Shown: one piece after another, positions 7,337 through 41,844 of the stretch
Position numbering within the stretch: the stretch's first letter is position 1
How the letters are laid out: every line of letters begins with the position of its first letter
NCBI GenBank assembly: GCA_942159475.1
Contig: OW804096.1
Location: forward strand, 137,897,791 to 137,961,790
Direction: 5' to 3'
DNA length: 64,000 nucleotides
From: Sthenelais limicola
Lineage: Eukaryota; Annelida; Polychaeta; Phyllodocida; Sigalionidae
Made by a program: the position numbers and the translations under genes
Notes under the pieces: model-generated
The model's input: only the letters and a program-made list of their open reading frames with translations
Databases searched by the model: none
What the model was told of the DNA's origin: nothing

Positions 7337-7371
7337 TGAGATGGAGAGGCAGAACCTCTCATCCGGCGTTT

Positions 7372-8890: not shown

Positions 8891-8911
8891 GTCCCAGAAG
8901 TGGTTCGCCAG
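8891..8911 (-). promoter_or_regulatory. tRNA primer-binding site
   Basis: One base after the 5' LTR end (8912) the minus strand reads TGGCGAACCACTTCTGGGAC. It begins with TGG, the complement of a tRNA CCA terminus, at the spacing expected for a minus-strand primer site. I cannot name the tRNA from memory; a search against tRNA 3' ends of the host would. Confidence 0.75.
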
Positions 8912-11526: not shown

Positions 11527-11624
11527 AGAGGATGCCTGAGGTGGGAGATAACCAGCATCTGTGTGGGAAGAAATGTGAATGTGTTTGTAAATTTGCTTTT
11601 TACTAATAGGGGAATTTATTAGGT

Positions 11625-12236
11625 TGTGAATTATCAATGGCAATTTGCCCAGAGATTTGGTGTTCTAGTATAAATGATGAAGTCAGAGAAGTCGGTTGGA
11701 TGGTTGTCTCAGGCCAGGCAGCAAGGTGAGTCCTTAGCTAGGCGCTGGGGCTTTATTTATAGTCACAAGGTTAATTATTCATTAGCATCAATTGGATCTT
11801 AGCAATGCGCTCCTGGCGTCATACCCTTATGATTGGCTGAGAGGGATCCTTCTACCCCATGAACATGACCTCCCAGCACTCTCCCACGCCAAGGTCATGC
11901 GCTGTTCACATGATAGCTGGTCCCTTACCCTCAACCCCCCCTCCCCTCCCATTATCCTTGACCCAAGCATATGGCGTCCCCTCCATCCCCCAGTCCCTTC
12001 CCCCCACCCACTAATGAGTTTAGCACAGGGAACACTAGATAATTCTATTTCTGGTTGCTAAGACAATCAAACAGGTACACACACAACAACAGGTGTCCAG
12101 CATTACCGCTCTCCCCCGCTCCACCCAAGTCCCGCGTGGCGGTCGAGGCCCAGGCGGAGGGGAGGGGGGAGAGAGGGGGAGGGGGGACAGCCATTTTAGC
12201 TGGTAAATTCAACCCAAAAGAATGCAATTCTTTACA
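11625..12236 (-). mobile_element. Solo LTR related to the full-length element
   Basis: 612 bp, TGTGAATTATC...AATTCTTTACA, flanked by the perfect 4-bp duplication AGGT (11621-11624 and 12237-12240). The 3' end CAATTCTTTACA and several internal blocks (GATGAAGTCAG, a TTTATTTATA block, a C-rich stretch) resemble the 580-bp LTR. Minus orientation is inferred from that resemblance. Open frames inside are LTR sequence, not genes. Confidence 0.85.
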
Positions 12237-12357
12237 AGGTATAAGGATATGGGTCTGAAACACCTCTAAGGATAGTTACCTAAAGGTGGCATCAATCTGA
12301 AAGGAACCTATTTAAATAAGCTAGGAATTGATTGACTCCATGTGATTTAATCTTGAA

Positions 12358-12900
12358 ATAAAGGTAAATGCCAGCGTTGTTAGCACTGCAGCAGGCAGGA
12401 ATTCAACAAACTAATCCATGAAAAAATCAACTTCACAATATTGTTTTCAAACTTCGTCTTGAGAAAGAACATTGTTGGGGGAATACAAAAAGCCAAAAAA
12501 TAGGATGTTGTTATATTATTTTGTGTCCTAGGGATGAATGAAGTTTACTCCCATTCACTATTGATTTCAATGGGGAAAACTGATCGTGATACAAGTTCAG
12601 CTGTATAATTTTTTTTAGTTCAATGACCCCATATTTTCTTTAATTGAGAGGGTAGAATAACGTGTCAGCTAGGTATATATGCAGATTTTAAAGAAAATTG
12701 CATGATTCAATCATCTGCTATTTGGGGCAATTCCGGAAATACCAGTTTTCCCATAGGCTTCTATGATGAACAGTAATAAATTTCAGCGGTCCCTGAAACA
12801 AAAATTAATTCAATGACATATTCAATGGCATTTGGGGTTCCCACAACCATGTTCTTTCTAAAACCAAAATTCCATGATTCCTTCATTTTTTATTTTTTTA
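12358..12900. mobile_element. MITE (family I), degraded copy
   Basis: Matches 48317-48893 over most of its length: AAGGTAAATGCCAGCGTTGT at the start, then GCACTGCAGCAGGC, GAGAAAGAACAT and GGGGGAATACAAAA blocks in the same order. The right inverted repeat has decayed. From here to 13206 I see no exon. Confidence 0.75.
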
Positions 12901-13206
12901 TCTGAGTACTTTCCTATCCATTTCCAAGTAACCGGTTCCCGTTCCATCTAGGAGTAATTTGACCAGAATTTTGGAGTACTTTATCTGCCTGTTTTCTTAC
13001 AAGGGTTGCTAAAATTGCACATCTATATTTTGGGGACCCTCAGAAATGGCTTCATTTCATCGGCGGTTATTTTCCATTCAACTTCAAATTAGTCTCTAAA
13101 CATACAGCGTTAGTGATTAATTCAGAGCTGTAAATCAGATCTCTAGTAAATGTGGGAATTTGTTTGGTCATAATAAGTAAGAAAACATCTTCGAGTATAA
13201 ACATAC

Positions 13207-15579: not shown

Positions 15580-18500
15580 CTGAAACATTGTCATACAAAG
15601 ACCTTACATAGTTTATATAGTGGTATTATTCTAATCTGTGATGTGCCACAGGAAGATCAAGCCATTGAATTCATCAAACGGAGTTATTCACAAGATGTCT
15701 TTGATATAATGAATCTCATCATTTTGGGGGGAGTTTAGTGCTACTAGTAGCATTAATACATGTACCAACTTACAAGACTGTGTATTGAATATATACAGAT
15801 TATTGTTGTTATTAATTCACGTTTGTCTTGGTTGACGTCAACGTCTTTGTTAACATCATGACAGCCGTCATGATGCATTGGCATATTTTTACGCGCCGCT
15901 GTTTCTGACCCACAAGCGTCAGGACTATATTTTAGAACGCAAAGTTATTTAATTCTGTACTGTCACATACAGTTATTTGACTCAACTTTTTTTCCAGTAA
16001 ATTACTCTAATAAATGTATTCAATTATATTTTTTAAATTTTGCAACTCATAATGTATATATATACAGGATAACTAACGAGTTGGTTGAAGGATTGTGAAC
16101 ATTGCACGAGTTGCTGCGCAACTCGTGCAATATTCACAATCCTTCAACCAACTCGTTAGTTATCTGATTTATTATATATGCTTTGTATAAACACAAAACA
16201 AAGTATATTTTGTAGAAATATTATCAAATTACGACCTTATGAGATGCTTGATCATGCTTTATTTGTGTGAATAGGCCTATTACTATGCACAACGCTGTTC
16301 TTACGGGCCTTGCTGCGAAGGATACAGACTTGAGAAAATAGGAAAATAGCTCACAGTTCCGAATCAATTTCAGACACTTTCACAGCTTCAAATCTTTTAA
16401 AAATGAAGTATTGCCTTGACAAAGGGTAGACTTTGATAAAGATAAAAGGATTTTAGTTTATTTATTCATTTGATGAAAATATTACACGTCGACCTGCGCT
16501 GAAAGTTATGACGATCTGCAGATCGATTTGTTGTCATTTGGTCACTGCGGGAAAACCGCTCACATTTTCGAATCGATTTCCAACGTTTTTGAAGCTTTAA
16601 ATAGTTTTAAAACCACATTAATGCTTTGACAAAGGATACACTCAGATAAAGATAAAGTATTCTAGTTTATTTCCTTCATTTTGATCTAATTTCACCGTTC
16701 TACCTCCTGTTCTGTCGCCGTTGACAACTAATCAGTGCAATGGCGTGATTCCCCACAGTTGACCCTGCACTGTCAGAGGCACCTTCGGGATGCCACACAG
16801 AGCGTGGAATTGTATACGACACAACTCAGAGCGTGGAGTTGTATACATACCCAACGTATACAACTCTACAATACGTTGTTTCATGGCCAACGCGTATATA
16901 ATAAGTGCTGATACTATTATAGTTGGAGAACTATATTCATTTCATATCAGCCTTAGGCCTGATATGGCTGTTGTATCGGCGGCAGGACTGTGTTGCACTC
17001 TCAGTATTAACTCAATGGGCCATGCGTATTGAACACATTCAAAGGTGAAGTAAGAAAGATTTCTTCCCATTTAGAAAAGTGCCAATGTTAAAAGAGATGC
17101 AGCACCCCCTTTCCTCAATCAACCATTTTCGTTTTAATTGTTGGTTACAAATTCAGGGGACTAGTTCATCTCACTGGTGGTCTTCCCCTATTACCTTGAG
17201 AATGAGGAAACACTGCAGCCTGGGTTCAAATTAACAACGCGCCAACCATGTCCACAGCCGATTTGGTCCCCGATTGCCTCCCGCCTTCGGGTCTCCGTAT
17301 GAATTCTATGATTTCATTTCAAATCATGATTCATCATTTTAAAATAACATAAACCAGGATTGGAAATGAAATCCTATAATTCATTGGGAGACCAAAATTT
17401 GGCGCGGGGGGGGTGGGGGGGGCGGGGGGGGGGGGGCAACCAGGGACCAGATTGGCTGTATGTGGGCAGGGTATAACACACCCCATCCCACAAGTAATGA
17501 ACTACTGTAAACGTATTTATTTTCGCGCAGATAAATTTTCGCGCACTAATTACATAGACACATTTTCGCGCGGATTTGTATTCGCGCAGCAAGGAAGTCT
17601 CACACCTTGTTTATGCAATAATTATACCTTTCGCGCAGGATTTATTTTCGCGCACAAAGGTGTGTGCGCGAAAATAGCGAAAATAAATACTGCGCAAACA
17701 TTAATACGTTTACAGTAACTATCTTAAAATCCTGTAATCGGCCAGTTTATCTATATATTCTATGGGTTGATTATCACAAGAGTAAAATGTATTTTATTCC
17801 ATTTTGTCTGACACCCCCCTTGTATTCCTCGATGAATATGTCGACCATTTTGGTCTTTGCCGTAATTATGAAATAAAATATATTGTTTTTTTTAAATTTA
17901 ATTATAATGATTTAATTTCTTTAATTCTAAAATTGATTAAATGTTTGATACTTACCGGTATGTAGGTAGATACAAGGATGGCAAAGTTGGTTGTGTGGCT
18001 ACAAGCACAGTGAACACGTTGGGCTGTCACATTCACCAGTTCACAGCCATCTGTGTCCCATGGTGTCCCACTGCAACGGAAGATTATCCATACAGATGTG
18101 AAATCTATTTTGCAAAACTTGAAAATAGGTTTGCAAATTTGACTAAATAAAATTTGGGCTTAAATCTTAATCAAATATTATTCATTATTGAATATATTAT
18201 TGTCCTGAAATGAAATTTTAAAAATATTATCGGTGCCTACAATTTTCAGATATTAACATATATATGCATAACTGATGCAGATTGTAAATAAATACAATAC
18301 ATATATGCACCTCTTTGCAAAGTTCAGGAAGCTGCAACTGAGGTGTGTAGGATCTGCCTGAAAACAAAGTTAATGTTGATTAGTGATCTAGTTTTCAATA
18401 TTCTGTCCATTTAAGCATACACCGAAAGCTATCGGCAAACTAAGAGGAAAGATTCCAAAGGAAATGCTATTACTAATCTACAAGGTAATGGTTCTACCTT

Positions 18501-21500
18501 TAATAGATCAAACAGACCTATTACACGATTCTCACGCTACAAATAACACAAATAGACTCCGAATTATACAAAATGAAATCCTACAAAGAATATATGGGCT
18601 ACCATCCAGGGCCAATGTTGAAAATATCCATTCAGAAAAGAATATTGTGACTCTTAAACATAGAAGAAGAATACATTTACTGCAGGATACTTAGACCTCA
18701 GAAATTTAGATACTCAAAATTGTGTGCAAGGAAGAAAATCTTTAAAACAAATAATACCTAAAAATGAACTATTAAGAAAATCCTTTTTAGAATTCCATTT
18801 GCTTGGAACCCTCTACGAACCATGGCCCATGGGATATCCGATTATAAATGTTTTAAGGCATTATCAAAGAACACACTAAACTGGCAAAACAAGAATTTGA
18901 TTGAATGAGTATATACCCGACTACGTGTATCTATTACCTATATCACTGATTACCAATAACCAGCTATAAATTGTAGGAAAAATCATTGACCATTGAACTG
19001 AGAATACTGAACTTGAAGATACCTACTGCGCTAATAACCACAATTAAATACAAATGTATGATGAACAGTTAATTAAAACTTAGCAGTGTAGCACCTTCGT
19101 CAAAGACGACAGTGGACTTGTCCACTGCTTATTATTACTGTAAAAACAACAGTGAGCATTAAGACCTCCCGTGACTGGAGATCCGCTCTCTGATAGCGAT
19201 AGATAAATCGAAAATAAAAGTTTCTAAATCTAAATCTAATTTATTATTTTCAAGGAGCTGATGGAAAACTTGACCAACTTCCCCCCTACTGTTCAGCATA
19301 TCTGTCAACCAAATTTATTTTGCTGGACACATCAGAGAGTCTGGGTCCTCTTTCATAATGGCTGAGACTGAATGGCTGACCCAACAAGGAATGTCCCGGC
19401 CTTGCATGTCATGATGTAGGACAGTCTTACGACATGCTATCTCTACACTCATTAGGGAGGTTTAGGAAGTCTAACTTGTATACGTAAACGTATACGAATC
19501 TGTATCTCTGATAAATAATCAAATGTTAAAAAGAAGAGTTTCAGCAAAGCATAGCAGGAAAAACGTAACATAACATATTAAGCGAAATGTTTCATCTAAC
19601 AATTTATTTCTCATACATAAAAATGAAACATAAGTCACAACAAAAATACGGATAAGGTTACAGCATAGAAATAAGTTTGCTTGCAGAACCTCCCTAAAGT
19701 TGAGATACTGACCTATTGAATTGTTGCTGGACATATCTCTAGGTTTGATAAATTCATTCGTTTTTTAGGCACATGACTATGCAAATGGTGAATGATAATA
19801 TTAACTGATGCCAGAATATCCGAGTAGTAACTGGCAAATACACAATTAAAAAGAAACAATACCTGACCATGCAAGTTGCTGAATGTAAGTGTTAGGTTTG
19901 AGTCCTGGAATTTTCTAGATTCCCTACCAAGGCCAACAGACAGTACTCTTGATGCTAAGGAACTGGAACAAAAGATTTAGTTCACTGCAATGAGAAGTAA
20001 ACTAGGACACCTCTTAAACGAAACTATCCTCATTGGTATTTCTATTAGAAATGATATGCATCGAATTCTATAACATAATTCATTCGAAATGTAAACATTA
20101 ACTAAACACTTTATTCTATAAGGATTTATTGAAGGTATATGTCTCCTACATGGAATTATTTGATTTGATAACGTTTCATAAGATAGCGGATGATCTTACC
20201 TTTCAACTGGGAGAATTGTGTGTATCGTCTCATAGAAGATGGTGGTAAGGTACACAGGGTTCTGGCATTGTGCATCTATAATGGTAAGGTAAGAATATAC
20301 GCAAATAAGCTCAGATATATCCAGCATAATAGGCCTATAATAGGGGAGTTGCATGTCTCACTGCGCATGTTTACTGCAGTGCATGCTGGGATGGATTCTG
20401 TTAAAATCTGTCATACAAATATTTGGCAAGATTTTATTGAAAATTGTCAGAATGTTTTCACTAAAACCATAGCTTATATAAATGATTTATGAAAACCAAA
20501 TGCATGATGGGAGAGCCGGGACATATATTATGGAAACATATATAGGATTTTTATTCCAACATCTGAAGTACAATACAGTTGTTAGAAATGGTCGATACAC
20601 TCTGCACCAGGTAAACCGGGTACACCCAAAGCATGTAAAACACGTGGATATTGACATTAGAGCATTAATAAACATTCCATCCTGAATATCGCATGTTTTC
20701 TATAGATCTTAGACTGTACCCTTAGTCCCATAATTCCATGCGAATCAAGATTCAAAATGGCGGCTATGCAAATCCCCTATTAAGCCTCTAATTGCTTGAC
20801 CTATTAAGAATTCATTTTATCAAAATAATTTTATCAACCATTCCAAACAAATAAACAGCACAACTAGAAAGAGAAGTAATTGATAAGCCAAGCAATTATC
20901 TCTGTTACAAATATACTATACAATTTCCATAAGGAAAACCTGCTAAATATTAGTGGATTACAAGTACAGTATGACGAGGCAGTCAGACAGCTCAGACGGT
21001 TTTAGAACATCACATGAATCTTCTTCCAGATTTCGTAACCTTTCCTCTTCAGAACATATGATTTTAGATTTAGTTGGGTGTATAATAATATAATGGACCT
21101 AACAATGTGATTGGATAACAGCTTCCTATATATTACAATATCCTATTAAAGATGAGAGACTGTCAACAGCTGGGGGGGGGAGATATTTATGAATTGGGGA
21201 GTATGTGTAAGTTATGTATGTTATGTTAGGTGTGTTATGAATATGAATAGATAAACTACTTTCAGTAACAGACTGAACTAAATATCAAATCATCTGGTAA
21301 TTATTAGGTTCTGAGAGAATATGCTATGATGGAGCCATATTCATTTTGGATATAATTATAGTATACAAGAAGCATTCATAATCTAAAGGTATATAACTAC
21401 TATTATTGATATAAAAACTGTACCCCTAAGGGATTGACACTGCAAATAGCAAACCCTCACCAAACCCAAACCCCTAGAATTAGATAGTGAACCCCTGTAG

Positions 21501-27500: not shown

Positions 27501-30500
27501 GTAAATATTGGGTATAGAGTCTGTCTTAAAGGCCTCATAACACTCTCTTAAATGTATGACTGCGAGGGCTTCATGATACGGTGGTTGTTGCTTTGAAAGT
27601 TTAGAATTTTGAGAGACTGACCCCTTAGGTAGTAAGTTGAATTAAAATTAGGATTTTTGCGAGGCAACTCAAGGGGTTGCGGGATTTGAGTGTGGTAAGA
27701 GGCCTCTCAGAGGTCTCTCAGACTAGTCTCAGAAGATAATCGTATATAGTTCAACACAAATTTTGCTAAGAGGGAGTTATGCAGCCTCTAATAGTGGTTT
27801 ACACACAAACATATATAGTGCAATGTCTCACATTGGAAATTGGAAATTAGTGTCTCTCATTTAACCTCTGTGAAGAAGCCATAAGGGTAACATATTGGAG
27901 ACAAAATGAAACAAACACAAAACGGAATGAAAACCGACTTGAGTGATTCTTAATAACAATAAAATATTGTAATACTTAATACATGTATTATTCAAGTTAA
28001 CACAAACAAAAGCGATCCATACTCACGCCAATTTCATAGAAGTTATTCTCGTCTAGCGCATCACACCAGAATTTCTTCTCATTTTTATATTTCTGAATGA
28101 TTGTTGCATTGCAGACGTATTTCTGTAAATCAATCAAAATACATGATCTCACTTCAAATCCTGGTTTATGTTTTTGAAATAACATAAACCAGGAATGGAA
28201 AAGAAATCGTAGGATTCATCGGGAGACCCAAATCGGGGGGCAATCGGGAGGCAAATAGGTTATGTGTGGTCAGGGTTTAACACCCACTTCTTACCGTATT
28301 CACGATAATCAGAATCAAGAACAAGAAACGCATTTACAGGAGTATGCATTTAGACTATGTGAGATAAAAACTAATGTAAATAGCCGCCCATTAACCCTAA
28401 AACCGGTATCAAATGGGAAGAAAACTACAAATACATCCCCCTACAACAGAAAGGTTAAAAGATCACAGATCACTTACTGGTATATCACGGTAGGAACGCA
28501 CAGCGAAATTGGAATTCAGGGGATTGAATGGAAAAGTACAAGTGATGGAATCATTTGTGACCGATGATGGTTCGCCATTTGACGCATTCCAAGCTCCTTG
28601 CCTGAAATTACAACAACAGTATAATACTTCCCGATGTTCATTTAACACTTTTGTATTGAGACATTGTGTACCAGAGCAAAGGAAAATAGTTCAATAATAA
28701 GGCGACTCCACTAGAGAAAAAACGGCGGCGACAAATTTTGTTGTCGCCCACTAACATCAGTTCATTTCATGTTTGCAATGTAAACGCTTATGGAGGGGTG
28801 TCAGGTGTGTCGTCACATTCTGTTTTTCTCTATGCCCTATAATAGGGCGGCTCCACTAGAGGGGAAAACGGCGGGGAAACATTTTGTTGTTGCCCACTAA
28901 TTTGTTGCAACAAATATCCATACAGAAACAACAGTTCCCAGACAATGTGGCAACACATCTGTTTTTTCTCTAGTGGACTTCCGCTAATAAGGATTATTTT
29001 CCTTCAGGAACCATGATACATGTAGAGGAGCTACTATAAATTGATGTACGGGAAATCAAGTCACAAATCACAAAAATGTTTGGCGTGATTAGCGGCACTA
29101 TTGGCATGAATACCAAATTTCAATAATGAATGTAGTTATGCATATCTGAGGTTATCCTTAAGAGTACATTTCACTACTTTACTAGTTATTATTGACCATC
29201 AAGAAGTATTGCTAACTTGTTTTTTTGATGCATACACAAATATAGAGGTACTAAAGTATAGAGTATAGAAGGTCAATTTTATGTGACATATGACTCATTT
29301 TCCCCTCAAACACCTACTTTAAAACTACATACTCGCCCAGCTTGCTGTGTTCCATTGTACCGCAGTAGAATTCCTCGCGATATTCCTAGGAAGAAATGCA
29401 GAACTTTGATCCTTTGGAATTACATTTCATGAAAGGTAATTCATCAAAATGAATTTCAACCAAATGTAAGATATATTTTGGTGTTTGTCAAAATCAACAA
29501 TTTTGGAGATTTTAATTATTAACTAAGTTTAGCAGGCTATATCTTGGAAATATTCAATGTATGAACAAACTGCATATTGACCGCATAAATACTCCCTCTT
29601 GCGTGCAGTAGAATGCTTATTTGTTTTTGTAGCTTACCTTCTTATGTATGTTCTCAAAACTGATGGACACTGTCGCATTATCCGCAACTGCATCCGCATC
29701 AAGACTTATAGACACCACTTTGGAAACTATCCTGTGTCAATTAAATTTTGTTTCATGTGATTTTCCATCTGGTATATTGACCACATATATATAAAGCTTA
29801 ATGTAAAGTAGGGCAAGTTTTATAGTTGGCTGGCTTGCCGGGGCTATATGGAGACATTTAGGCCTACACACCAGCCGTAAACAAATATACCAACACTATA
29901 GAGTGCTGAGATGACTAAAGTTGGCCAACAACCCAACCACAACCAACCCTGCAACCCAGAGTACATGACTTTAGTTTGGCTATAGGAAGCTAATTCCATT
30001 TTTGACATATAGTATTATTATGGATTGAATTGTGTGAACTCATAACTTGCATGATTATATTGTACTCTTTCTAAATTGGAAATGCACTTTATATATGAGG
30101 ATTATGCCGAATACTTGTTTTCTTAGATCGTAAACATAACAATATATATAAGGGACTGTGCCAATAGAGGAGTTGCATAGCCGCCATTTTGAATCTTGAT
30201 TCGCATGGAATTAACGGACTAATGGTACAGTGTAAAATTCATAGAAAACATGTCATGTTCAGCGTGGATTATTTATCATTGGTTTAATGTCAATATCCGT
30301 GTGTTACACATGTTTCTACAACACAAACCTCCATCTTTCCCATTATGCGTTTGGTTTTCATAGATGATTCATACAAGCTATGATATTGGTGAAAACATTC
30401 TTGCAATTTTAGATAAGATATTGCCAAATATTTGTATGTCAGATTTTATCAGAATCCATCCCAGCATGCACTGCAGTAGACATGCGCAGTGAGACATGCA

Positions 30501-33500
30501 ACTCCCCTATTAAAGATGCATTCTTAGCTAGCATAGATGTATAGGTCTGATCAATTTGAGGCTGTTTTTCACCTTTTGTTCCCTTATTTTCCATCGAATT
30601 GAATAGACACTTGACCAAACCTTTGGCTATTTCACCCAATAACTTTTTGCTGCAGGCCTTAATGAATCTATATCGCGGAGCTTTAGGTGGAAAATTACGA
30701 AGTAGCACCGGCTGGCTGAATCAAGCCATGCTGCAGTGGGGGAGGCCATGCTGCAGTGGGGGAGGGGGGGGGGGGGAGGCCCGGCCTTAATCATTTGGGA
30801 TCAAATACGATTCATTTTTACTAGTAATGGTCAACTACTTCCTTCACTGACTAAGGACTACCCATTGAAGGGTAGGTTTAGGGTTAATTTTAGTACAGAT
30901 CTATTTTAGTTCACATTTTCACTAGGGAACCCAAGCCGGCACCAGTTAAAGCAGCCAATCAGAAATGCAAAGTCACTGAAGCCACTTTCAGCCGGCCGGT
31001 GCGAGCTCGTGAGTTGCAGCTGCTTGCTATAGCAGTAGCCCCTAAAATATTTTGCTTCGACCGTTTCACTTATTATCGCTCACTGTTCTTGTTATGTAAC
31101 ATTACGTAACATTGTGTAACCTCATTATATTTATATTATTATTAATTATCACCTATTATCACATTACTTTAAATCGCTAATTATACTTAACTAGCTAGGA
31201 CTGTGCAAGTCTACTTATACATGCTAGGCCATGGATATTACGTAAGGGCTCCGCCCACTCATTATTATGCATGTAACCTCCTGGAGGAGCCTGTAGTTGA
31301 GATTACTTCTTCCATTAGATCATTACATTCTGATTTTCTCACCGATTGATAGCTAATCTATACATGTACATAGAGATCTTACAATCAGATAGTCAAATAC
31401 GTAGTCTGACCAACTTCTAATTAATCTAAATATATGATTTCTTCTTAATCTGTTTTTTCAATTTTTGACATTTTAAAATAACACTAGTAAATACCTGGGA
31501 TACCCACGGGATCTGCTAGTGGGACAGTGGGGCCCAGATCATCTCTCCTTGTTCCCTTCCCCACCATTTTCTCTTTCAAGTTGTCTCTATAACTTAGTAT
31601 CTGTATTAAAATTCATAACACAAATGGAACCCTGTTTAGATGGGTTTTTTGGTCACTGTTCAGTGCTGTGCTGTTGTTTTGTTGCCTGTCCCTGTCACTT
31701 TCCCTGTCCCTGTCCCTGTTCCTGTCCCAATCCCTCTCCCGCTCCCATTCCCTCTCCCGCTCCCTCTTTCATTGTGAGGTAATTAGTGGGCAGGTAAATA
31801 TCTATGTGGTTGGGCCTCTCCCACTCCTTCTGCCTCCCTCGTTCCCTCTCCCTCTTCCATTCCCTCTCCCGCTCCCTCTTTTGTTGTCAGGTGTTTAGTG
31901 GGCGGATAAATTTCGGCATGGGCGGGTAAATAGATGGAACCTAGCAAGGGGGAAGTCTGTACACTTATTATTGACCGAGGGAGCGCAGGAAGATAGAGGG
32001 CGTTAGCCCGAGATCTTCTGGGCTCCCGAGGTCACTAACAAGTGTACAGACTTCACCCGAGCTTTGTTCCATATTTATTACACCCCATTAATACATAAAA
32101 AATATAATTAATTAAAAATAAAAGAAGTAATTTAAGTTTTTGGTGGACCTACTTGCTGTATGTCCCCAGGGTGACATAACTCACATGTTATGCACCACTT
32201 TGACCAAGTGTGACATACAATGCTGAAGGTATAGGAAGCAACATCACAGGGGTGTAATAAATCTCTGATTTCACCCGTCAATGTAGCGGGCAAAGAAAAA
32301 AAGTTAACTTCACATACTGTACAAAGAGTGCTGAAGACTGAGGCCCCTTCACCCCAAAGTTTTCAACACAAATTCGGAAGAAGCAGGAGGAAAGAATCAC
32401 TGAGTTCTACTGCCTGAAACCCTTGACAAACTTTAGCTGCCACTGTCCTGTAGGCCTACCTATGGGCAACACACTTTGGCACCACCGTGGTCCTTGTATA
32501 CCACCTCCCCTCCCCCTCAAACCGCCTCCCTCCCCCAGCCTCCCTCCCCCCCTTTCCAACCCTAGTTTGTTAATGAAACATAGCGGAATGGCTCCGCATT
32601 ATTTTTGGGAATGTGGATGTGAAATATATCGGAGATCTGGCAAGCGGTTTCGGCGGAGATACGTTCAATGTACGGAAATCTGTTCCCGTATTAATATAGA
32701 GATTATAGATGATTACCTTGAGTTAAGGAGGACCAGATGCAAAGTTTCATACACTACTATAGTAAGCCACACCGTGTCCTCCGCCTGTTTGATCAATTCA
32801 ACTGTTTCTTTTGCAAACGTGAAATTGAATTTCAATTGAGTTTCATCCGATCGACATATGTTAATATCTGTAAAACGTAAATTGCTGTGAGAAGAAGCAT
32901 GCAGTACTATGTCTATAGATTAAGTCATGAGTCACAAAATTGATATTTTTCATAGTGTTTTATTTAAAAATGTATTTGTAGGAATGTTTTAGTCATTGGG
33001 ATATTTAGCAATTTATATGCATAGATGAATCAAATTTCAAGACTATATCAAATAATTAAGTCTGTCCGTTTCTAAGGTCATTGTATGGAGTATATTTAGT
33101 TACTTTACAAATAATTGGGCACCCAGAACAATTTCAAACATTTTTTCAAACATAAACAAAATCAAACATAAAATATAGAAATATATTTCAGATTTCCAAA
33201 GTGTCAACACCATTGAAATCCACTTAATATCATCTTTTCAAGTATCATGGTACCTCAAAATCCATTTTTCCCGGCAAATATCTTAATACATTTGACGATA
33301 TTTTAAAATAAGTTATTGATATACATGTGGCGCCGATTTACAAATATTTCTTGGAATTAGTGCTATGAAGGTACCTCAACATTTGCGTCAGACCATTAAA
33401 ATACGGCTCTACAGTTTCAGAGATACCTTTGAATATTTATGTCATACATTATAGTAGCACATGACCAAAAAGTAAACGAATTACCTATATTGCTTGTCTT

Positions 33501-36500
33501 GAACTCCCAATGGTCGGAGAACATATCCAGGCGTATGTAGGTCTGTACTACCAATAATAAATCATTTCCCTTATCATTCTCCTCCTGTAAAACATATGTT
33601 GTAGTAATGATTGGCACGTGATATGACATGCAGATATTCAGTCAGGGAATCAGTATATTAATTTAATCAGCCGTTAAGTCAACAATGTATATTTTTGTAA
33701 TGCATATAGGGTATAACTAATAATAGAAATAAAATGTTTACACCAGAGAAACAAAATTAGGAATATTCAAAAAGGTGTCAAAACGTACTTAACAAGTACA
33801 GGCAAAGTTTAAAGTTTAAAGTTATATATAAGACAAGCAAAACATTTGATACTTGCATGAGGTTTGTTAGCAATACAGAATGTTATACGATGATAAAGAA
33901 AATCGCTGACTCTAAGGGATGTGAAAGTATAATGATCAAATCGTACCATGAATCAATTTGACAGGCAGGACTAGCATTTCAGATTTACAGACTCTTACCT
34001 GGCTGTTTCCCATATAACTCTCAATTCATAGCTGTATATGTCCCCCAACCCATCTGATGGTCATTTGACCAAGGTTTTTGAGAATGTTGTCCAGTTGTTT
34101 TTGCTACAGGTCTATTAAAACGTCCTCATGTGCATTTGGAGGACCTGAATCCCTTCCTATGCGGACTTCACTTATTATCGCGCTCAGTTTACTCTCATCG
34201 ATTACACTTCAAATTCTTGTAATTGTAAACACATATAACAGCAGCAGAATATTGATTAATGCAGTCCTATAAGTCATAATTTAAGTAAATGTTATATGAT
34301 ATGCCTGTCATTATAGCTGAGAATACAGCTTTAACTACTCAGTGTTAGATAGTTAAACCCTATGATCCTCTATTGGAGTTGCTCCATAGATAGAACCTAA
34401 TGAGAATGTGACACTATTGCACTGTCCAAGATGTTTGTTTTTTTTGTGGCCCACGAGCCGATAGGCAAGGTTGGTTATGAAAAGAAACAAACATTGATGA
34501 CAGTGCAATAGTGCCCCGAGTTCCACATTCGAATTTAGGTTCTATATTTACTCCCACGTTGCTATGTATAGGTATATAGCTGTGTACTGGGGGAGGAAGA
34601 GGGAATGGCAATGCCATACCAAATTTGTGGAACTGGTGCAAATTACCACACTACTCCAGCCCATACAAATAGCATGTGGTACATACACCAATGTGGAATA
34701 ATATACATTGCCATAGGTCTTTGCGTTTAATATCACTAGTTATCTTGGCTGATTAGGACCCTCACATGAACATTACGTCATAGATAGCACTAGTTGCGAC
34801 GTATAGCCTAGATTAGAGTTAAAAAACTTTAGTTAGTTACCTTCAAAAGAGTCTTCCAGTTTTGGGGCAGCTGTTTTTCATATTCCTTTGGTAGAATATT
34901 GCTTACTGCTGTTACAACATTCTGAAACTGTATTAAATTTCATTGTTTATCGTTAGGAGAAGTCCATAACGTCTAACGGTTAAAGTATGTAATAATAATT
35001 CAATAACACATTTTTAATTAAACAATTGTATTGAAGCATTCCAATAGATTTTTAATAGCGTTAAACGTATATATATGTGGATGTTCAATGAAAACTTCCA
35101 GGGATTATCACGGACTACATAAGAGAGAAATTGAAAAAATATATATATCTCACCAACTTAGTTTTCCTTTTACAGTCGCTTGTAAATAATAGTGCTTTAG
35201 TTTGGGAGTCTATGGGAAAATGTTTTTTCCACTTTTACTATATGAACTGAAATTTTCCCAAACATTTCTACACATAGATATATGTGGTCATATGCTACAG
35301 ATTTCATGAAAACAAATAATCATATGTCGCGGGTTAAACAAGTTGTGGTCATCTAAAGTTGGCCATGCCGCCCAAATTCAGTTATTATGCAGCATAATCA
35401 ATGGTAACAAAATATAAAAATCACTACTCAAAACAGCTGTAACAGAACATAAAATGTAGGTATTGAACATCTTAACTTATGATGACAAGGAAATATTTCA
35501 ATGATGAAAATACGCCGAAAGGTGGCGTGTGTGTTAACACTCGCAAATATCTTTAAACATATAAAAAGGGTTCCTGTTTTGACAACTAATGCTTCGATTT
35601 TGGGATTCATTAAATTTGTATCAGTATGTAATCTGTTGTATAGGCTAACCTCTGTCTCTGACAGTCGTATGCCACCATCATCCAAATGTATCGGTCTCAC
35701 AGATATTATGCTGTCGTTAGTATTTAATTCAGTCACTCTTGACCCTTGTTTCCGCCGGAATCCCTTTTGTAGTTCTGTATAGGTTCTATTCCTCAGCTCG
35801 GCCACATGAACCAACGCTGCAATGGTATTGTTGAGTTGTGATGAAGAAAGCTCTCCCAGTCCAGGGATGCTACTAAGTGTTTCCATTGCTGTGATGAAAT
35901 CTTCGACATCATTATAGCTTGTTAATTCCAAGATCTGTCAATATAACCTAGCATAAGTGATATTAGCCAGTAAACAATGTAAATATGAAGACAAACTTCC
36001 AGTGAGTCAATACCCTATGGTTTAAATCTACCCCCCCCCCCCTCCACACCCCGCATATTAGTACAAATGTGATGTCTTCCAGGAAAATGAGTCATAAGTC
36101 GCAAAATTGATATTTTTCAAAGAGTTTTTTCACATGATCACATTATTGGAATGTTCTATTTTGGGGAAGGTTTATCACTTATAGCTATATCAATCAATGT
36201 ATTAAATTTCAGAACAATCTATGTTATATATCCTTTCGTTTTAAAGGTCCTCATATGGACTACATTCAGTTACTTTACTGTTTATTGACCCCCATAAATA
36301 TTGGAAACTTTTTTTCCCAAAACGAAAATATCAAACTTAAAATCTAGAAATACTTATTAGATTATTAAACTGTTTACTATCATTGGAATCGGCTTTATCT
36401 CATCTATTCAAATAATGGTAACTCAAAATCTATTTTTTGCGACTTGTGACTCATTTTCCTAAAACGGATCACAAATAGCCTAGGCCTAATGTATCGCTCT

Positions 36501-39500
36501 CATTCATTGGATATGAAATATTAAATTGATGACCATTTAATTCTAAGCTAGAACCGTGACCACAGAAACTTACCCCCTGAAGATGACGATCAACCAAACA
36601 GTATCCAGTGGTCACTTCATGATCCCAGGAACCATCAAGGTGACATTTGCGAGATCCTACCTTGCCTCTGCCCCTACATGAAGCTTCATCATCTAGAGAG
36701 AGAATACATTCAAACATTTAGCAACATTTTTATAGTGATCCTGAAGAAGGGCACATGTCGCCCGAAACGTCGATCTCATCTTATTGAATAAACCTACTCA
36801 AAACAAACTTGTCCCTAATGTGTTAGGAGTTGACTTCACATCAATTTGAATTGTTATAGTGAATTAGGAAGGTTTCGAAACGATTGAGGAAAATAGAAAC
36901 AATAGGACCCTGATAATTCATTGCAATCATTTAACCAGGGTAGCTTTTTTTCTTCTGACAATAGTTATGCCCTGCTTTCTATCTATATAATCAAACTACA
37001 CTAATTGAATGATGTTCCTGACTACTAGTAATAACACAGTTGAATTGCAACCTCGTTAAGATCTTGTATATTCACTTCTTGGCGTGTTAGAAATTATAAA
37101 GTTGTAATGATAAAGGCACAAATGCCAGAAGACTCCCTCCTACCACGGTATCCTCACCAATCCCTCTCCTAGCAGTAGATAGACAAACTTGGTGGATTAA
37201 AGGATTACTCTAGAAGGCCAGATCGTAATCTGAAGTGCACTACTTTGTTTTGTATCTGTAGTTTCTTGGCAACATAAAGAATTTAAATTCTATTGTTACA
37301 TCATGTTACGCAATAATGACGTAACAATGGGTAACCACTTTATGTCTAAAATTATCATTAATTATTATAATTACATTTAATATCTCAATTAGGTAACATG
37401 TCCATTACCCATTAAAGTCACATGGACCAAGCACCTACCTGTATGTTAGACCATAATAAACATTCATTCTAGATCTTAGGATCACAGCCTTAAGACTTCT
37501 TTTATACTCTTAATATAATCCCACAATATTTCTATAACTATTCCATATTTAAGACAGATCAAACCTTCATATAAAACTATTACTATCAAAATTTAGATCT
37601 TGTTGCATTTGTATGGTTTGACTACCCTGAAACCCTATTGCTCGACTTTTTGCAGGAACCGTGTTGATGATGTTTCAGCTAACAAGATTAATATACAACA
37701 TTTCGCCCACGATACAGTCTTGTACATATCAGACGTATATTGCGGAAGGATTTATTAGTATGGTTTATAATGTATGATACTTGTAATAATAGTAATATCA
37801 CTCCAGCCTCACAAAAAAAAAGAAGAAAAAAAAGAGAGACCGAACTGATACTGAATAACTATACTCAAACTTGTTGGAATCCGGTGGCCTGGAAGATCTG
37901 CTTTAAGTATCAGATGGTATTATTTCTATCACAATTAATTTAAACATCCTTTTCTGGAAAAAAAATTACACGCATGTATATGTTTACTGCTGGAATAAAA
38001 ATATTACAATACAATACAATACCTTCACAACAATGTGCCGTTTCCCCAACTGTCGTCTCCGGCCATGTGATATTCATATGGACGTCATTACCCCGGCATC
38101 TGCACACTGCAAAAACAAAGGTCAATCCTTTTGAATACAATTTCAGTATCAGCGGGGACATCCCAATTATCTAACAATATAATTAAAATTATTTGATTTT
38201 AACAAATCTTAATCAAAACTCTCTCATCAAAAAATACGTTGAGGTAAATATAGAAGAAATACGTTTTACTCACTTTCAATGGTTGTGACTGTATTTGTCA
38301 AGTTTGCACACTGCAAGAAAGATTAGCAGAGGATACATTAAAGCCCGGTTCCGAAATGTTGTTATGAAATGTATGATGAAATGTCAAATGTATGTAACGG
38401 AATTTTGGAATAAAAATCTTTATATATATATATATTATATACTTTGTACATCGTGTAATAGTTGTTATTTCTCTTCTGATGGTCATTACGTTGGATGCCG
38501 TGTATTACCTCTAAAGTTAGATTCATAAATTTGGAAAGCCATCACCCCCTTTTCTTTAGAGTAAACAAATATACTTAAAATGGTAACTATAAAATTGTTA
38601 ATATAAATAGTGAGTAGTGAATTTGTATCAATAAAAAAGCCTTCTGTAGTCCACTAAGCTGATTCTCATGCGATTTTGCATCGCAGAAGACACGTTTGCA
38701 CTCAATTCTATGAGAATCGCATGAGTATCAGCTTAGTGGACAAGGGCCTTTAGTCTCAACAACATTAACAAAACTACAGCCAACTTATGACATAAGCATA
38801 TTGCATGAAAATTCCAGTAATAATGACAGCATTGACCATGCATAAGTCCACGGGTCCAAAGTTCTGTATATCTCTAGAAAAGGTGTATCCTTAGTGTCAT
38901 ACAAACTAGATAGAAATATACCTTTTCTGACACATTATAGTTGGAGCAATTGTACGGAGTTATTTTATCACATTCTCTCAGGAAATCGCACATTTCTTGT
39001 AGATGCGGGTGGTCAATCCTTGTGTCATTCTGTAGATATGTGTTGCACCGTCCAGATTCAGGCTTACAAACACTGCCTGGCGGGCACACTCTGTAGGATA
39101 TTGAATTCTTCTTGGTCTGAAAAAAGAAAAGTTGGTTGAAATAAGATAATCACCATGGGGTAGCATTACGAAAGACCCATCGAGCTAATGCAGAAGGGTG
39201 AAATCTTCAGAAAATGTACAATTCACCTTCACCAATTTTCTCAAATAACCCATATTTAGGACAAAAATTAGCTTTGAAATGCGGTTTAACATAACAAGAC
39301 TGATACTTTAAATCAATGCGATGCCAAAATTTATACTCAGATATTCCTGGTATTCATTATTTTTCAGCCTAGTTTAGCAGAATTTCCTAAATGTGTAGAG
39401 CTGCCAATTGTACATTTTATGAAAATCTGACCCAGAAGCTCTCCTAAATTGGGTATTACTGACAAAAGGCAGTGAGACAGTTCAGTGACTAGCTAGTGAA

Positions 39501-41844
39501 TGGGTCAAAGAGATTTTCTTTTTATATGTTGGATAAACTGGGGGAATAGTGCAGTAGTTGCTGAATTGTTAATTTAGAATTGACTTGAGTAATAATAGTT
39601 GTATCTGCAATGCAAGCATACATTCACAATGTGGACATGCATCTCTTGTGATACAATGTTTATTGATTGTTTTGGCTGATTAAGTAATAAAATAAACTGT
39701 CATTGAGTGATGGCCTCCAAGTAAGATGGCAACCAGCCGGGTACGTCACGCACTTGCTACTACTTCCGGGACAGGAAGTGACGTCACGCTTATGGAAACA
39801 GCATTTTGACAGAGCGTTTTCATTGTTTTTTTTAACACTCCAAGGTTTATTCTAATTATACGTGTGTCTTGCCTCACTGCGCTACCACCACTGAGCTCAG
39901 AGCTCAGATTAGAACGTTCCACGGTAGCTTACCTGGCAACCAACGTGTTGCCCAGGTGTTGTGGATTTCCCCTTTGTGACATCACAGGTGTTGCCTGGAT
40001 GTCTCTCCTTGTAGAGTTAGGAGTTAGGTTTATTCTAAGTTCCGACCGCTGGATAGACATATACAGAGTCAAAGTATTCCATATATGGTGACCAAAAATG
40101 TTGGGACATTACTGAGGTGGTGGAAAATATGTTTATGTGTGGGCGCGATTCACTTTGTAAACCAGTTAAACGGGCGAACGGCGGCCATGATACTTACATG
40201 CCCTATTATGACAAATAGTAAATATTGCTATTGTAATCCAACCAAGTGCATGGCGAAACCTTGGAAAATATTAGTGCAAAGATCGAGCTTTGAATTACGA
40301 TCAGGATAATTATCAACTCTTCCTTTTACCCTCAAGATGACCCACTCACCTTGTGTGTTACTGAATAACGATCATTCAAAGGGTCACATCGGTTTGGTCT
40401 CCCTTTATCCAAGTCGGAGATACTGCAAAAGAATTTCTGCGACGAGCACAATATTTCCATATGATAATCAGGGCAGCAATATAATATAACGTGCAAGTAA
40501 ATATAGGTCAGTTAATAGATTCCTCAGTACTCATAGCTAGTCTTATGATAATGAACCTATAGTTGCTGGATAAGTACACATATGGTAAAATATAAGCATT
40601 CTCAATAGTACATGAAATTAAACCAATACTGCCTTCGCCATTCTTCTAGATGAAATTGCTTTATCAACTCTATGTTGTTATTTCTATTTGCGCGAGAAGA
40701 GTCTAAAGTTGGAAAAACAAAATATTTGAAATAATAAGTTGTTTCGTCTCAAACGTTTTGCCTTTGAAGTTTTGTATTATATAACAGCACAGAATATTGA
40801 TGAAATGCCGTCCTATTAATTATAATATGAATCAATTCGATAGGATGTATTTGGTAGTAATAGCTGATGATACAGCTTTACTTACCCCTGAATTTGAACT
40901 TTCCTTGCCGGCGCATGTGCTGACTGAAAATATTAATAAAAGCTTCAACACATTAGTTACAAGTTCTACTTGTACTTTTGTGTAAACATAAAAGTCATTT
41001 TTCTAACGCATATTATGAAAAACTCGGATAATATGTTCATTGGTTGCCTTCAGGTGTGGTGCATATTTGATTGTAATTTTTAAATTTCGGAAATACAGTT
41101 TCACATTTGCATATGTGCACGCTTGCACTCTTTGGAACAGCATCCCTAAAGCCTGGGTTCCACTGCCCCGCTACTTCTCCCGCTACTACTCCCGTTCCTT
41201 TGCTCCTGCTACTTTTAGAAGCGGGAACAAGCAGTGGGAAGTACCTGCTTCAATTCAAACATCGGGACAAAAGAAACTGGAGGAGTAGCGGCACAAGTAG
41301 TGGGGCAGTGGAACCTAGGCTTAACCATACAAAACTGTATAACTTAAAGGAATTTAGAAACTTTTCTGAGGGATTATATGTTAACAGATTAGGCGGTGAA
41401 GAAAGGATTCCCTGAGTCATCTCCTTCCTCCTATAGCTGACATTATAATTATCAATTAGAGTTAGAGATGGGAAGAACCCTATATATTCTTTGCAAGCAC
41501 ACATTACTTACGATTCCTTCTATTTGAGCTTTTTCTTCTAATACGTTAATTAAAAAGGATACACAATTAACATTAGCAATATAACATTCGAAAAACTGTA
41601 CCGTTTCCTTCATAGTAAGAACGTCTTGCCATCATACGTTTATAGATTATGTGAAGACGCCAGTGTTGTTATAGCAAGGCTGTTTATGAATTCATAGCAA
41701 TATAGACTCAAATTGTTCACAACAATAACTCACCTATAATCCATAGAAGTAAATAGCAGGCAGTAATGAGGGTAGTCACACGGTAGTATACTGCCATGGG
41801 TGCCGCCATATCGAGGTCTACCCTCTGGCCTTCAATTCAAAGTC
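13207..41844 (-). CDS. Adhesion G-protein-coupled receptor with two tandem HRM-GAIN modules (3' part outside window)
   Basis: Reconstructed from 31 exons (coordinates in the block entries below), 3317 coding nt, 1105 codons, starting with ATG at 41809 and leaving the window in phase 2. All acceptors are AG, all donors GT. Each exon has one open frame, and all phases chain correctly. Order: signal peptide (1-25), Cys-rich 1 (35-140), HRM1 (141-208), GAIN1 with degenerate GPS (209-509), Cys-rich 2 (510-608), HRM2 (609-676), GAIN2 with canonical GPS (677-961), TM1-TM4 (962-1105). Family knowledge: aGPCRs are cell-surface receptors whose GAIN domain self-cleaves at the GPS and exposes a tethered agonist. 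Ligand and subfamily are unknown. No disabling change is seen. Alternative: two fused or co-transcribed genes. Against this, only a 355-bp intron separates GPS1 from Cys-rich 2, and no TM exon lies between. Confidence 0.9.
13885..14045. mobile_element. Small inverted-repeat MITE in GPCR intron
   Basis: Ends TTACCCCACGTTG and CAACGTGGGAGTAA form a terminal inverted repeat. An inverted copy lies at about 34546-34700, sharing the internal blocks CATGCTATTTGTATGGGCTG and GTACACAGCTATATA. Confidence 0.75.
16068..16164. repeat. 97-bp near-perfect hairpin (MITE family E)
   Basis: Two 47-bp arms (GATAACTAACGAGTTGGTTG...) around a 3-base loop TGC at 16115-16117, with one arm mismatch. Diverged relatives with the same ACTAACGAGTTGGTTG start occur near 60756 and 62776. 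It sits in the intron before TM1. Confidence 0.9.
16310..16700. repeat. Two diverged direct repeats
   Basis: About 140-bp segments at roughly 16330-16480 and 16555-16700 share CGCTCACA/AGCTCACA, GACAAAGG and GATAAAGATAAA blocks in the same order. The following ~300 bp (16790-17040) holds a short duplicated GAGCGTGGA(A/G)TTGTATAC. No exon is seen. Confidence 0.55.
17255..17472. mobile_element. MITE (family D) copy with poly-G tract
   Basis: Palindromic element with central AACATAAACCAGGATT and an outer half reading GGCTGTATGTGGGCAGGG. Better copies are at 25816-26010 and 28148-28278. The right half has been invaded by a G-rich tract (17405-17436). Confidence 0.7.
17503..17717. mobile_element. 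MITE with TACTGTAAACGTA termini and TTTTCGCGC blocks
   Basis: 215 bp. Ends TACTGTAAACGTATT and AATACGTTTACAGTA are inverted repeats, and the interior has repeated TTTTCGCGC / GCGCGAAAA. No coding capacity. Confidence 0.85.
17956..24507 (-). CDS. GPCR exons 20-27: GAIN2 domain and canonical GPS
   Basis: Exons: 24325-24507 (183 nt, phase 0), 23910-23990 (81), 23166-23277 (112, ends phase 1), 21542-21682 (141), 20200-20275 (76), 19863-19962 (100), 18311-18357 (47), 17956-18070 (115, ends phase 0). GAIN marks include LLNSTVAALVHMTALRE, VDTVGNILPR, VYLTTIFYETIHTIL and SNLTLTFSNLHGQ. The GPS is complete: LSCSFLNFAK, then PWDTDGC, then CACSHTTNFAILV, with the H-T/T cleavage triad at about residues 948-950, so cleavage between 949 and 950 is expected and TNFAILVSTYIP would be the tethered agonist. 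Compared with GAIN1, one extra intron (between 21542 and 20275) splits the exon that matches 32717-32867. Confidence 0.92.
18430..19250 (+). mobile_element. 3' fragment of a LINE (non-LTR retrotransposon)
   Basis: The 18464-18694 frame (76 codons) resembles the C-terminal end of a LINE reverse transcriptase (LLIYKVMVLPLIDQTDLL, then NRLRIIQNEILQRIYGLP). It is followed by 3' UTR and a short tandem tail TCTAAATCTAAATC near 19230, typical of CR1/L2-like 3' ends. A similar tail is at 53078-53100. It lies in a GPCR intron, antisense to the gene. Confidence 0.75.
20339..20781. mobile_element. MITE (family C), ends TAGGGGAGTTGCATG / GCAAATCCCCTA
   Basis: 443-bp inverted-repeat element. An inverted relative occupies 30175-30509, sharing GCAGTGCATGCTGGGATGG and CAAATATTTGGCAA. 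Partial relatives end near 50977 and 54353. Confidence 0.8.
22228..22480 (+). repeat. Three ~75-bp tandem pyrimidine-rich repeats
   Basis: Three units, each CCTTTCTGTCTCT...CCCTTCTTCTCTA...CCTGGGT, almost pure C/T on the plus strand. They lie in the intron between GPCR exons 22 and 23. No exon is seen; see the rejected 22610-22777 frame. Confidence 0.85.
23346..23459. repeat. Hairpin-forming inverted repeat
   Basis: Two arms of about 41 bp (TTTAAAACTTTCTAGGGGCA... and its complement ...TGCCCCTAAAAGTTTTAAA) around a ~33-bp centre, with few mismatches. A compact foldback element in a GPCR intron. Confidence 0.85.
25202..26544 (-). CDS. GPCR exons 18-19: second HRM domain
   Basis: Exon 18, 26461-26544 (84 nt, phase 1 to 1), with NITWPKTPKGEIRTCC, the W-P-x-T-x-x-G core of hormone-receptor-motif domains. 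Exon 19, 25202-25320 (119 nt, phase 1 to 0), with GECGGDGGIGQRLC, NGTWDHV and a closing NGC. Both exons have exactly the length and phase of their counterparts in HRM1 (84 and 119 nt). HRM domains precede GAIN in many class B2 receptors and can bind extracellular ligands. Confidence 0.93.
25816..26010. mobile_element. MITE (family D), most complete copy
   Basis: Inverted repeat of about 195 bp: CTGCCAACACATAGCCGATT on the left, AATCGGCTGTGTGTGGGCAG on the right, meeting at CCTGGTTTATG / CAACCAGGATT. It lies in the intron between GPCR exons 18 and 19. Confidence 0.85.
26720..28122 (-). CDS. GPCR exons 15-17: second Cys-rich module
   Basis: Exon 15, 28027-28122 (96 nt, phase 0 to 0), KYVCNATIIQK then FWCDALDENN. 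Exon 16, 26998-27165 (168 nt, phase 0 to 0), RECGGGHCTPGYEACHADK, then LCQVLNEC, then SSVCTNHN. Exon 17, 26720-26753 (34 nt, phase 0 to 1), CKDIPMINTTR. The pattern K-[FY]-x-C, C-D-x-L and GxxC matches Cys-rich module 1 exon by exon. I do not recognise the module as a named domain. For exon 16 the acceptor TTTCACTTTAG was chosen because it gives phase 0 and the same start as exon 4. Confidence 0.9.
28148..28278. mobile_element. MITE (family D), right-half copy
   Basis: Matches 25890-26010: CTTCAAATCCTGGTTTATG, then the half ending GTGTGGTCAGGG. It lies in the 355-bp intron that joins the two receptor modules. Confidence 0.75.
28478..35934 (-). CDS. GPCR exons 8-14: GAIN1 domain with degenerate GPS
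   Basis: Exons: 35650-35934 (285 nt, phase 0; the donor at 35650 is the best of two in-frame choices), 34841-34921 (81), 33485-33584 (100, ends phase 1), 32717-32867 (151, ends phase 2), 29638-29731 (94), 29318-29385 (68), 28478-28601 (124, ends phase 0). GAIN marks are QLNNTIAALVHVAELRN, NVVTAVSNILPKEY, VWLTIVVYETLHLVLLNS and VVSISLDADAV. The GPS region has EFYCG, then GAWNAS, then ITCTFPFNPLNSNFAV. The second cysteine of the usual four, the C-x-C pair and the H-[LT]-T cleavage triad are all missing, so self-cleavage is not expected. It is followed directly by Cys-rich module 2 rather than TM1. Confidence 0.9.
28701..28984. mobile_element. MITE with CTCCACTAGAGAAAAAAC termini
   Basis: Ends GGCGACTCCACTAGAGAAAA and the complement TTTTCTCTAGTGGACTTCCGC form a terminal inverted repeat. 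A second internal copy of the left end lies near 28848 (GGGCGGCTCCACTAGAGGGG), suggesting nested or tandem insertion. Confidence 0.8.
30175..30509. mobile_element. MITE (family C), inverted copy
   Basis: Reverse-complement relative of 20339-20781 with ends TAGAGGAGTTGCATAG and GACATGCAACTCCCCTA. Confidence 0.8.
30690..32400. other. GPCR intron stretch with G- and C-rich simple repeats
   Basis: Contains a poly-G tract (30736-30776), a CCCTGT/CCCTCTCCCG-rich segment (31680-31870) with a duplicated GCTCCCTCTTT...AGTGGGC block, and AT-rich sequence. At 26030-26120 and 30705-30810 a CACCGGCTGG...GGATCAAATA block is shared. No exon is seen. Confidence 0.5.
32922..33280. mobile_element. MITE (family B), decayed copy
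   Basis: Starts with CATGAGTCACAAAATTGATATTTTTCA, compare 36090-36120, and ends with the TATCATGGTACCTCAAAATC block seen at the right end of other copies. Confidence 0.65.
34546..34700. mobile_element. Small inverted-repeat MITE, second copy
   Basis: Inverted copy of 13885-14045: TTTACTCCCACGTTGCTATG at the left end, CACCAATGTGG at the right. Confidence 0.7.
36063..36475. mobile_element. MITE (family B), full copy
   Basis: About 410 bp with long terminal inverted repeats. The left end has ACAAATGTGATGTCTTCCAG then GAAAATGAGTCATAAGTCGC; the right end is the complement, GCGACTTGTGACTCATTTTC then CTAAAACGGATCACAAAT. No coding capacity. It lies immediately downstream of GPCR exon 7. Confidence 0.85.
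36574..38106 (-). CDS. GPCR exons 6-7: first HRM domain
   Basis: Exon 6, 38023-38106 (84 nt, phase 1 to 1), CRCRGND and NITWPETTVGETAHCC. Exon 7, 36574-36692 (119 nt, phase 1 to 0), SCRGRGKVGSRKC, DGSWDHE and TTGYC. The Trp-Pro-x-Thr-x-x-Gly core and the Cys spacing are those of the hormone-receptor-motif family. The exon pair has the same lengths and phases as exons 18-19. Confidence 0.93.
36741..36770 (+). other. Hammerhead-like / Penelope-type terminal motif
   Basis: CTGAAGA, a GGGC...GCCC stem and GAAACGTCG, followed by ...TTGAATAAACC. A related motif on the minus strand at 47961-47990 reads CTGATGA, GGTAT...ATACC, CAAACGTTG, with AATGAATAAAACC beyond. Penelope-like elements are known to carry hammerhead ribozymes with CTGATGA-stem-GAAA cores. 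Neither copy here has a perfect core. Confidence 0.4.
38274..40436 (-). CDS. GPCR exons 3-5: first Cys-rich module
   Basis: Exon 3, 40350-40436 (87 nt, phase 0 to 0), KFFCSISDLDK then NRCDPLNDRY. Exon 4, 38922-39116 (195 nt, phase 0 to 0), RVCPPGSVCKPESGRC, then MCDFLREC, then YNCSNYNVSEK. Exon 5, 38274-38310 (37 nt, phase 0 to 1), CANLTNTVTTIE. For exon 3 the acceptor GCTCGTCGCAG was chosen over one 14 nt further in, because only the first gives phase 0 and restores K-F-F-C, matching K-Y-V-C in exon 15. Eight or more cysteines suggest a disulphide-bonded extracellular module. The domain family is not recognised. Confidence 0.88.
38641..38750. mobile_element. Foldback element (family G)
   Basis: Ends GTCCACTAAGCTGATTCTCA and the complement (TGAGTATCAGCTTAGTGGAC), with a short centre. 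A larger relative is at 50267-50817. Confidence 0.8.
39196..39433. mobile_element. MITE family A, copy 1
   Basis: 238 bp, GGGTGAAATCTTCAGAAAAT...ATTTTATGAAAATCTGACCC, flanked by AGAA/AGAA. It is the only copy in the transcribed part of the GPCR gene, lying between exons 3 and 4. The other 17 copies are listed below. Confidence 0.88.
39700..40340. other. GPCR intron stretch with a short palindromic GC-rich block
   Basis: Near 39750-39790 the sequence TACTTCCGGGACAGGAAGTG is a small hairpin flanked by two TACGTCACG / GACGTCACG motifs. These look like CRE-type sites, but in an intron their role is unknown. Otherwise I see nothing. Confidence 0.35.
41149..41322. mobile_element. MITE (family H) with GGTTCCACTGCCCCGCTAC termini
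   Basis: Left end AAGCCTGGGTTCCACTGCC, right end GGCAGTGGAACCTAGGCTT, an inverted repeat about 174 bp apart. A half copy is at 49996-50076. Confidence 0.8.
41512..41844 (-). CDS. GPCR first coding exons: signal peptide
   Basis: Exon 1, 41734-41844. The acceptor ATATTTTAG at 41845-41853 shows it is preceded by a 5' UTR exon. The ATG is at 41809. The coding part (76 nt) gives MAAPMAVYYRV followed by TTLITACYLLLWII, a good signal peptide. Donor GTGAGT. Exon 2, 41512-41537 (26 nt, phase 1 to 0), EEKAQIEGI, donor GTAAGT. This microexon is supported only by its splice sites and because it supplies the phase that exon 3 needs. Confidence 0.85.

Follow-up and report, generated by a model that had tools for sequence, protein, structure and literature searches.

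In adhesion GPCRs, the GAIN domain is regarded as the switch next to the membrane. According to passages of one account, H-X-S/T is its canonical cleavage motif, although the motif alone is not sufficient; the GAIN domain by itself suffices for cleavage, and the Gly-Cys cysteine is disulfide-bonded in most GAIN domains (PMC13062082). The same passages report CTF-size fragments in brain for ADGRB1 and ADGRB3, both of which are without the His (PMC13062082). For ADGRE2, sections of a second source describe GAIN cleavage as requiring membrane tethering and as helped by the 7TM domain (PMC12488864).

A second complete HRM-GAIN unit in one receptor was, according to the original prediction, not known to be a described architecture. 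No receptor with two GAIN domains was found in open-access full texts, subscription papers lying mostly outside that literature. Look-up of the relevant terms found no two-GAIN/GPS receptor in PMC11697300, PMC12716839 or PMC4302439, none was found in the first 300,000 characters of PMC13197933, and a two-GAIN receptor is unmentioned in 12 of 20 passages of the amphioxus survey PMC2246102. The phrase "two GPS" in the relevant part of PMC5548486 denotes two GPS mutants, not two domains. A second GAIN in one receptor would be surprising to specialists. Here we describe a gene of the polychaete Sthenelais limicola in which the ectodomain of an adhesion GPCR is doubled.

Organization of the Receptor Gene

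The sequence analyzed is a 64-kb window, to whose positions all coordinates refer; the receptor gene lies on its minus strand (Table 1). Thirty-two exons, running from 41809 to 11492, form one stop-free frame of 1132 codons from the leader to TM5, and all 31 introns are bounded by GT..AG. The length of 1105 codons originally given for the protein is replaced by this value, which applies up to TM5, where the gene model stops; TM6 and TM7 of the 7TM domain are located outside the window. The acceptor of exon T2 is weak (score −4.5). The leader encoded by exons E1 and E2 is probably a signal peptide. Behind it, the predicted product would carry two consecutive modules, each comprising a Cys-rich head, an HRM-like segment and a GAIN domain (module A, exons E3–A11, 475 residues; module B, exons B0–B11, 452 residues), followed by the 7TM domain.

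Table 1. Positions in the window of the receptor exons, the intermodular region and the MITE-like repeats.
Feature	Position	Strand	Remarks
Exon E1	41734..41809	-	ATG and hydrophobic leader; hydrophobicity judged by eye
Exon E2	40886..40923	-	End of leader region; exit phase 0
Outer (membrane-distal) module A, 12 exons (E3–A11)	28478..40436	-	Cys-rich head, HRM-like segment, diverged GAIN
Exon A3	38023..38106	-	HRM-like segment of module A, first part; HRM E = 0.017, under cut-off
Exon A4	36574..36692	-	HRM-like segment of module A, second part
Exon A11	28478..28601	-	Degenerate GPS of module A; donor GTAAGT
Intron between modules A and B	28123..28477	-	355 bp
Candidate alternative first exon	28295..28333	-	13 codons (ATG and 12 strongly hydrophobic), signal-peptide-like; donor GTAAGA; phase 0 into B0
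MITE-like palindromic repeat	28145..28276	-	Truncated; in A11–B0 intron, adjoining exon B0
Inner (membrane-proximal) module B, 13 exons (B0–B11, B8 in two pieces)	17956..28122	-	Cys-rich head, HRM-like segment, GAIN, GPS
Exon B11	17956..18070	-	GPS with H-T-T triad and tethered-agonist-like stretch
Exons T1–T5	11492..15579	-	TM1–TM5 of secretin/adhesion-type 7TM domain
Exon T5	11558-11492	-	TM5
MITE-like palindromic repeats	26010-25796; 17479-17253		Further copies, in receptor introns

Homology of the Two Modules

The paired exon lengths reported for the two halves were all reproduced (87/96, 195/168, 37/34, 84/84, 119/119, 285/183, 81/81, 100/112, 151/(141+76), 94/100, 68/47, and 124/115 nt), as was the agreement in intron phase, entry phases being equal in 12 of the 12 exon pairs. 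When compared by BLASTP, modules A and B align over their full length with 25% identity (E = 2e-34), and their heads alone align across 96 residues (E = 5e-14). Once spliced, the outer-module exons contain no stop in frame, whereas the two alternative frames have 28 and 43; in 2000 random splices, assembled from pieces of the outer-module exon lengths drawn from positions outside exons, the best frame had a minimum of 12 stops and a mean of 24.9. The doubled feature did not arise by chance. In a tree of 11 GAIN domains, A and B are sisters (97/96), with a branch of 3.59 for A versus 1.19 for B, a length for which the tool warns that the placement of the long row is unsure.

The doubled ectodomain in this adhesion GPCR gene is real and well preserved. 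The earlier description of a Cys-rich/HRM/GAIN/GPS series occurring twice stands insofar as tandem homologous modules in one open frame precede an adhesion-type 7TM domain; its claim of two complete HRM-GAIN units does not, as the outer GPS is without H-X-S/T and two cysteines, and HRM falls under the cut-off in both modules. An assembly artefact that merged two separate receptor genes or alleles is the least probable explanation considered here: the window does contain elements that are hard to assemble, namely a minisatellite of 71-bp units and an LTR-type insertion that looks young, but these sit at 1–11525, away from the A/B junction, and modules only 25% identical are not alleles.

The Inner Module and the Seven-Transmembrane Domain

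Two HRM and two GAIN/GPS hits had been anticipated from a Pfam search, and this expectation was borne out for the GAIN and GPS of the inner module; the outer GAIN and GPS went undetected, and HRM was under the cut-off twice. Module B, which adjoins TM1, scores over the cut-off for both GAIN (PF16489, E = 1.7e-10) and GPS (PF01825, E = 1.8e-10), and its triad reads H-T-T. Exons T1–T5 match 7tm_2 (PF00002) across TM1–TM5 with E = 5.1e-30. The nearest solved structures to module B are those of ADGRF1, ADGRD1, ADGRB and ADGRL (20 distinct sequences at E ≤ 1), and a homologue search with the GPS–TM5 stretch returned 21 proteins, all 21 of which contain 7tm_2. Judged by its inner GAIN, GPS and 7TM sequences, the predicted gene product is an adhesion GPCR.

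HRM is found in many adhesion GPCRs, not in all of them. It was the sole Pfam family reported for either head when these were searched alone, though under the cut-off of 26.2 bits (E = 0.017 and 16.0 bits for A; E = 0.04 and 14.7 bits for B), and hhalign of the heads against six HRMs gave weak matches (E = 0.011 and 0.013, probability <4%). With the whole of module A as query, the HRM match was weak (E = 0.43) and stood alongside four unrelated families, also under the cut-off. These values lend weak support to an HRM identity, and both heads are here labelled HRM-like.

The Outer GAIN Domain and Its Degenerate GPS

Pfam detected neither GAIN nor GPS in module A; phmmer matched it to none of 22 relatives, 14 of which were matched by module B, and its one match among solved structures was to an unrelated protein (E = 0.62). 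The outer GAIN was also compared by hhalign with a profile in which nine other receptors were represented by their GAIN-GPS stretches and B was excluded. Residues 94–282 of its 301 align with this profile (E = 2e-5, probability 77%, against 98.8% for B), and the score of 41.8 compares with a maximum of 19.6 in shuffles, of which 40 of 40 were scored. Over this part of its length, module A is homologous to GAIN.

When the outer GPS is aligned with that of B, the H-X-S/T triad is seen to be replaced, and the first and third cysteines are kept, one in exon A11 and one in exon A10, while the second and fourth are absent. The first GPS cysteine pairs with the third and the second with the fourth, so that one entire bridge is gone, which argues against random decay. 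This bears on the reading of module A as a decaying relic, in which an ordinary receptor would be preceded by a pseudogene segment. The long A branch in the GAIN tree, the degenerate GPS and the failure of Pfam to detect GAIN could all be cited for this reading; we consider it very improbable, since not only was the bridge lost as a unit but 475 codons persist without stop or frameshift, and phases and splice sites are intact despite about 25% identity.

Lacking H-X-S/T and two cysteines, the outer GAIN is inferred not to undergo cleavage. This is tempered by the statements cited above that the motif alone is not sufficient, that the GAIN domain by itself is, and that ADGRB1 and ADGRB3, although without the His, give fragments of CTF size in brain (PMC13062082). 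The locus probably, though far from certainly, represents one gene for one receptor, in which a cleavage-dead outer GAIN, a working inner GAIN and a 7TM domain are combined. The inner GAIN would fold at the membrane, cleave itself at H-T-T and hide a tethered agonist. The outer GAIN, freed from cleavage duty, would have lost the triad and the two GPS cysteines and may act, uncleaved, as a spacer or as an extension for ligand binding, relaying force or a binding event to its inner counterpart. Loss of the cleavage site in a GAIN distant from the membrane would fit the tethering requirement described for ADGRE2 in sections of PMC12488864. ADGRB3 is comparable in that H-X-S/T is missing (no His) and, according to passages of PMC13062082, the protein was obtained uncleaved; in receptors of this type, however, the uncleaved GAIN is membrane-proximal, whereas here it is a second, outer GAIN. 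If this reading is true, a structural or ligand-binding role of GAIN would be separable from its role in cleavage and tethered agonism, and the proposed dependence of cleavage on membrane tethering could be tested in a naturally occurring receptor.

The Junction between the Modules and a Candidate Internal Start

The donor of exon A11 is in phase 0 and scores 6.2, ranking 24th of 32 in the gene, a value equalled or exceeded at 166 of the 3353 GT sites of the minus strand; the acceptor of exon B0 has the third-best score of the 31 in the gene. Unspliced, A11 would meet a stop four codons further on, and a scan of the 355-bp intron for polyA signals found no AATAAA or ATTAAA and one weak CATAAA near the 3′ end. 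Together, the read-through stop, the lack of AATAAA/ATTAAA in the intron, the phase-0 GTAAGT donor of A11 and the high-ranking B0 acceptor favor splicing of A to B; the low rank of the A11 donor speaks against it.

The same intron contains the candidate alternative first exon listed in Table 1, a mini-exon of the kind that had been named beforehand as a possible refutation of a single receptor. It is the sole match on both strands of the window to a hydrophobicity of at least 3.5 combined with a consensus-like donor; as these criteria were fixed after the mini-exon had been noticed, the share of the window taken up by the intron (355/64000, or 0.55%) is a rough guide only. At a laxer hydrophobicity of at least 2.6, there are 31 sites on the minus and 2 on the plus strand, most of those listed being copies in the TM5 minisatellite. 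The donor of the mini-exon scores 6.7, above the 6.2 of A11, and 146 of the 3353 GT sites do as well. As the mini-exon is in phase with B, a receptor with one module may begin there, in addition or instead.

Such an internal start competes seriously with the single-protein reading. It is possible, if unlikely, that two starts or two genes are present, that B and the 7TM domain are made mainly as a one-module receptor from 28333–28295, and that the two-module protein is absent or minor; A would then be the secreted or read-through product of an upstream paralogue whose 7TM exons were lost. Besides the ATG, the hydrophobic stretch and the phase-0 donor of the mini-exon, whose score exceeds that of A11, there is precedent in human adhesion GPCR genes, for which parts of PMC11039983 report internal promoters, soluble N termini arising via premature stops and intron retention, and a shorter form of ADGRG7 that has a signal peptide and is made from an intronic promoter. 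Against this, only about 130 bp, in which there is no AATAAA or ATTAAA, would have to accommodate both the A 3′ end and the B promoter, the GTAAGT donor is still in phase at A11, and 13 residues are short for a signal peptide.

The gene might also make two receptors with one 7TM domain, although we hold this to be rather unlikely as well: in the long form, a cleavage-dead outer GAIN would precede an inner one that cleaves, and the short form would have the inner module only. The short form could arise from the internal signal-peptide exon or from skipping of E3–A11, whose phase-0 ends would preserve the frame. In that case the outer GAIN would be, as far as searches of open-access full texts show, the first described to serve a GPCR purely for adhesion or force bearing at a distance from the membrane. 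The likeliest outcomes are that only the two-module receptor is made, or that both forms are.

Origin of the Module Pair and Related Receptors

Both ends of the doubled block are in phase 0 and coincide exactly with the leader/head boundary on one side and the GPS/TM1 boundary on the other, so that either a single unequal exchange or a tandem pair minus its first 7TM domain would give the observed layout. We suggest that the pair may have originated by tandem duplication of the phase-0/phase-0 exon block through one unequal exchange. Alternatively, tandem genes may have fused with loss of the first 7TM domain, and the mini-exon could be the former first exon of the second gene. A tblastn search of the window with the 1132-residue protein for a remnant of lost TM1–TM5 between the modules yielded, in the 355-bp intron, only the run-over of B0, and a remnant of this part of a 7TM domain was rejected. 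MITE-like copies are present in the A11–B0 and B11–T1 introns; a duplication mediated by them was considered and rejected, the copies in the window being about 76–88% alike against 25% protein identity between the modules, so that the repeats look younger.

A homologue search with residues 480–999 gave one match among the 7993 candidates sharing most words, a search with residues 30–660 gave none at E ≤ 10, and neither search found a two-module relative. Pfam placed at most one GPS stretch in 14 of the 15 relatives scanned (8/8 and 6/7, from 22 collected), a count that would miss any second copy diverged to the extent of module A. Four Haliotis proteins (P0004, P0005, P0006 and P0008), of the HRM-GAIN-GPS-7TM type, resemble the inner module and have the order GAIN-GPS-7tm_2; their GPS–TM5 stretch is 41–43% identical to that of the receptor described here, and their GAIN-GPS stretch is matched by module B. 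The remaining scanned protein, Mobula birostris P0002, is the only one of the 15 with two GPS stretches in one prediction, but it also has two 7tm_2 stretches, unlike the present arrangement of two modules on one 7TM domain, and seems to unite two complete receptors, either because the genes form a tandem pair or because the model is merged.

Other Repetitive Elements in the Window

The 71-bp minisatellite occupies 1–179 and 9492–11525, the larger block comprising about 29 copies with 96% matches. It overlaps the 3′ end of T5, and its unit carries a copy of the exon end with the splice donor. Inside it, at 180–9491 on the minus strand, sits an LTR-type element with gag-, pol- and env-like genes, which we presume to be such from inspection by eye; its terminal repeats of 580 bp are 100% identical, and the insertion therefore looks very young. 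Between 57733 and 58813, a 10-bp unit is repeated in tandem about 108 times.
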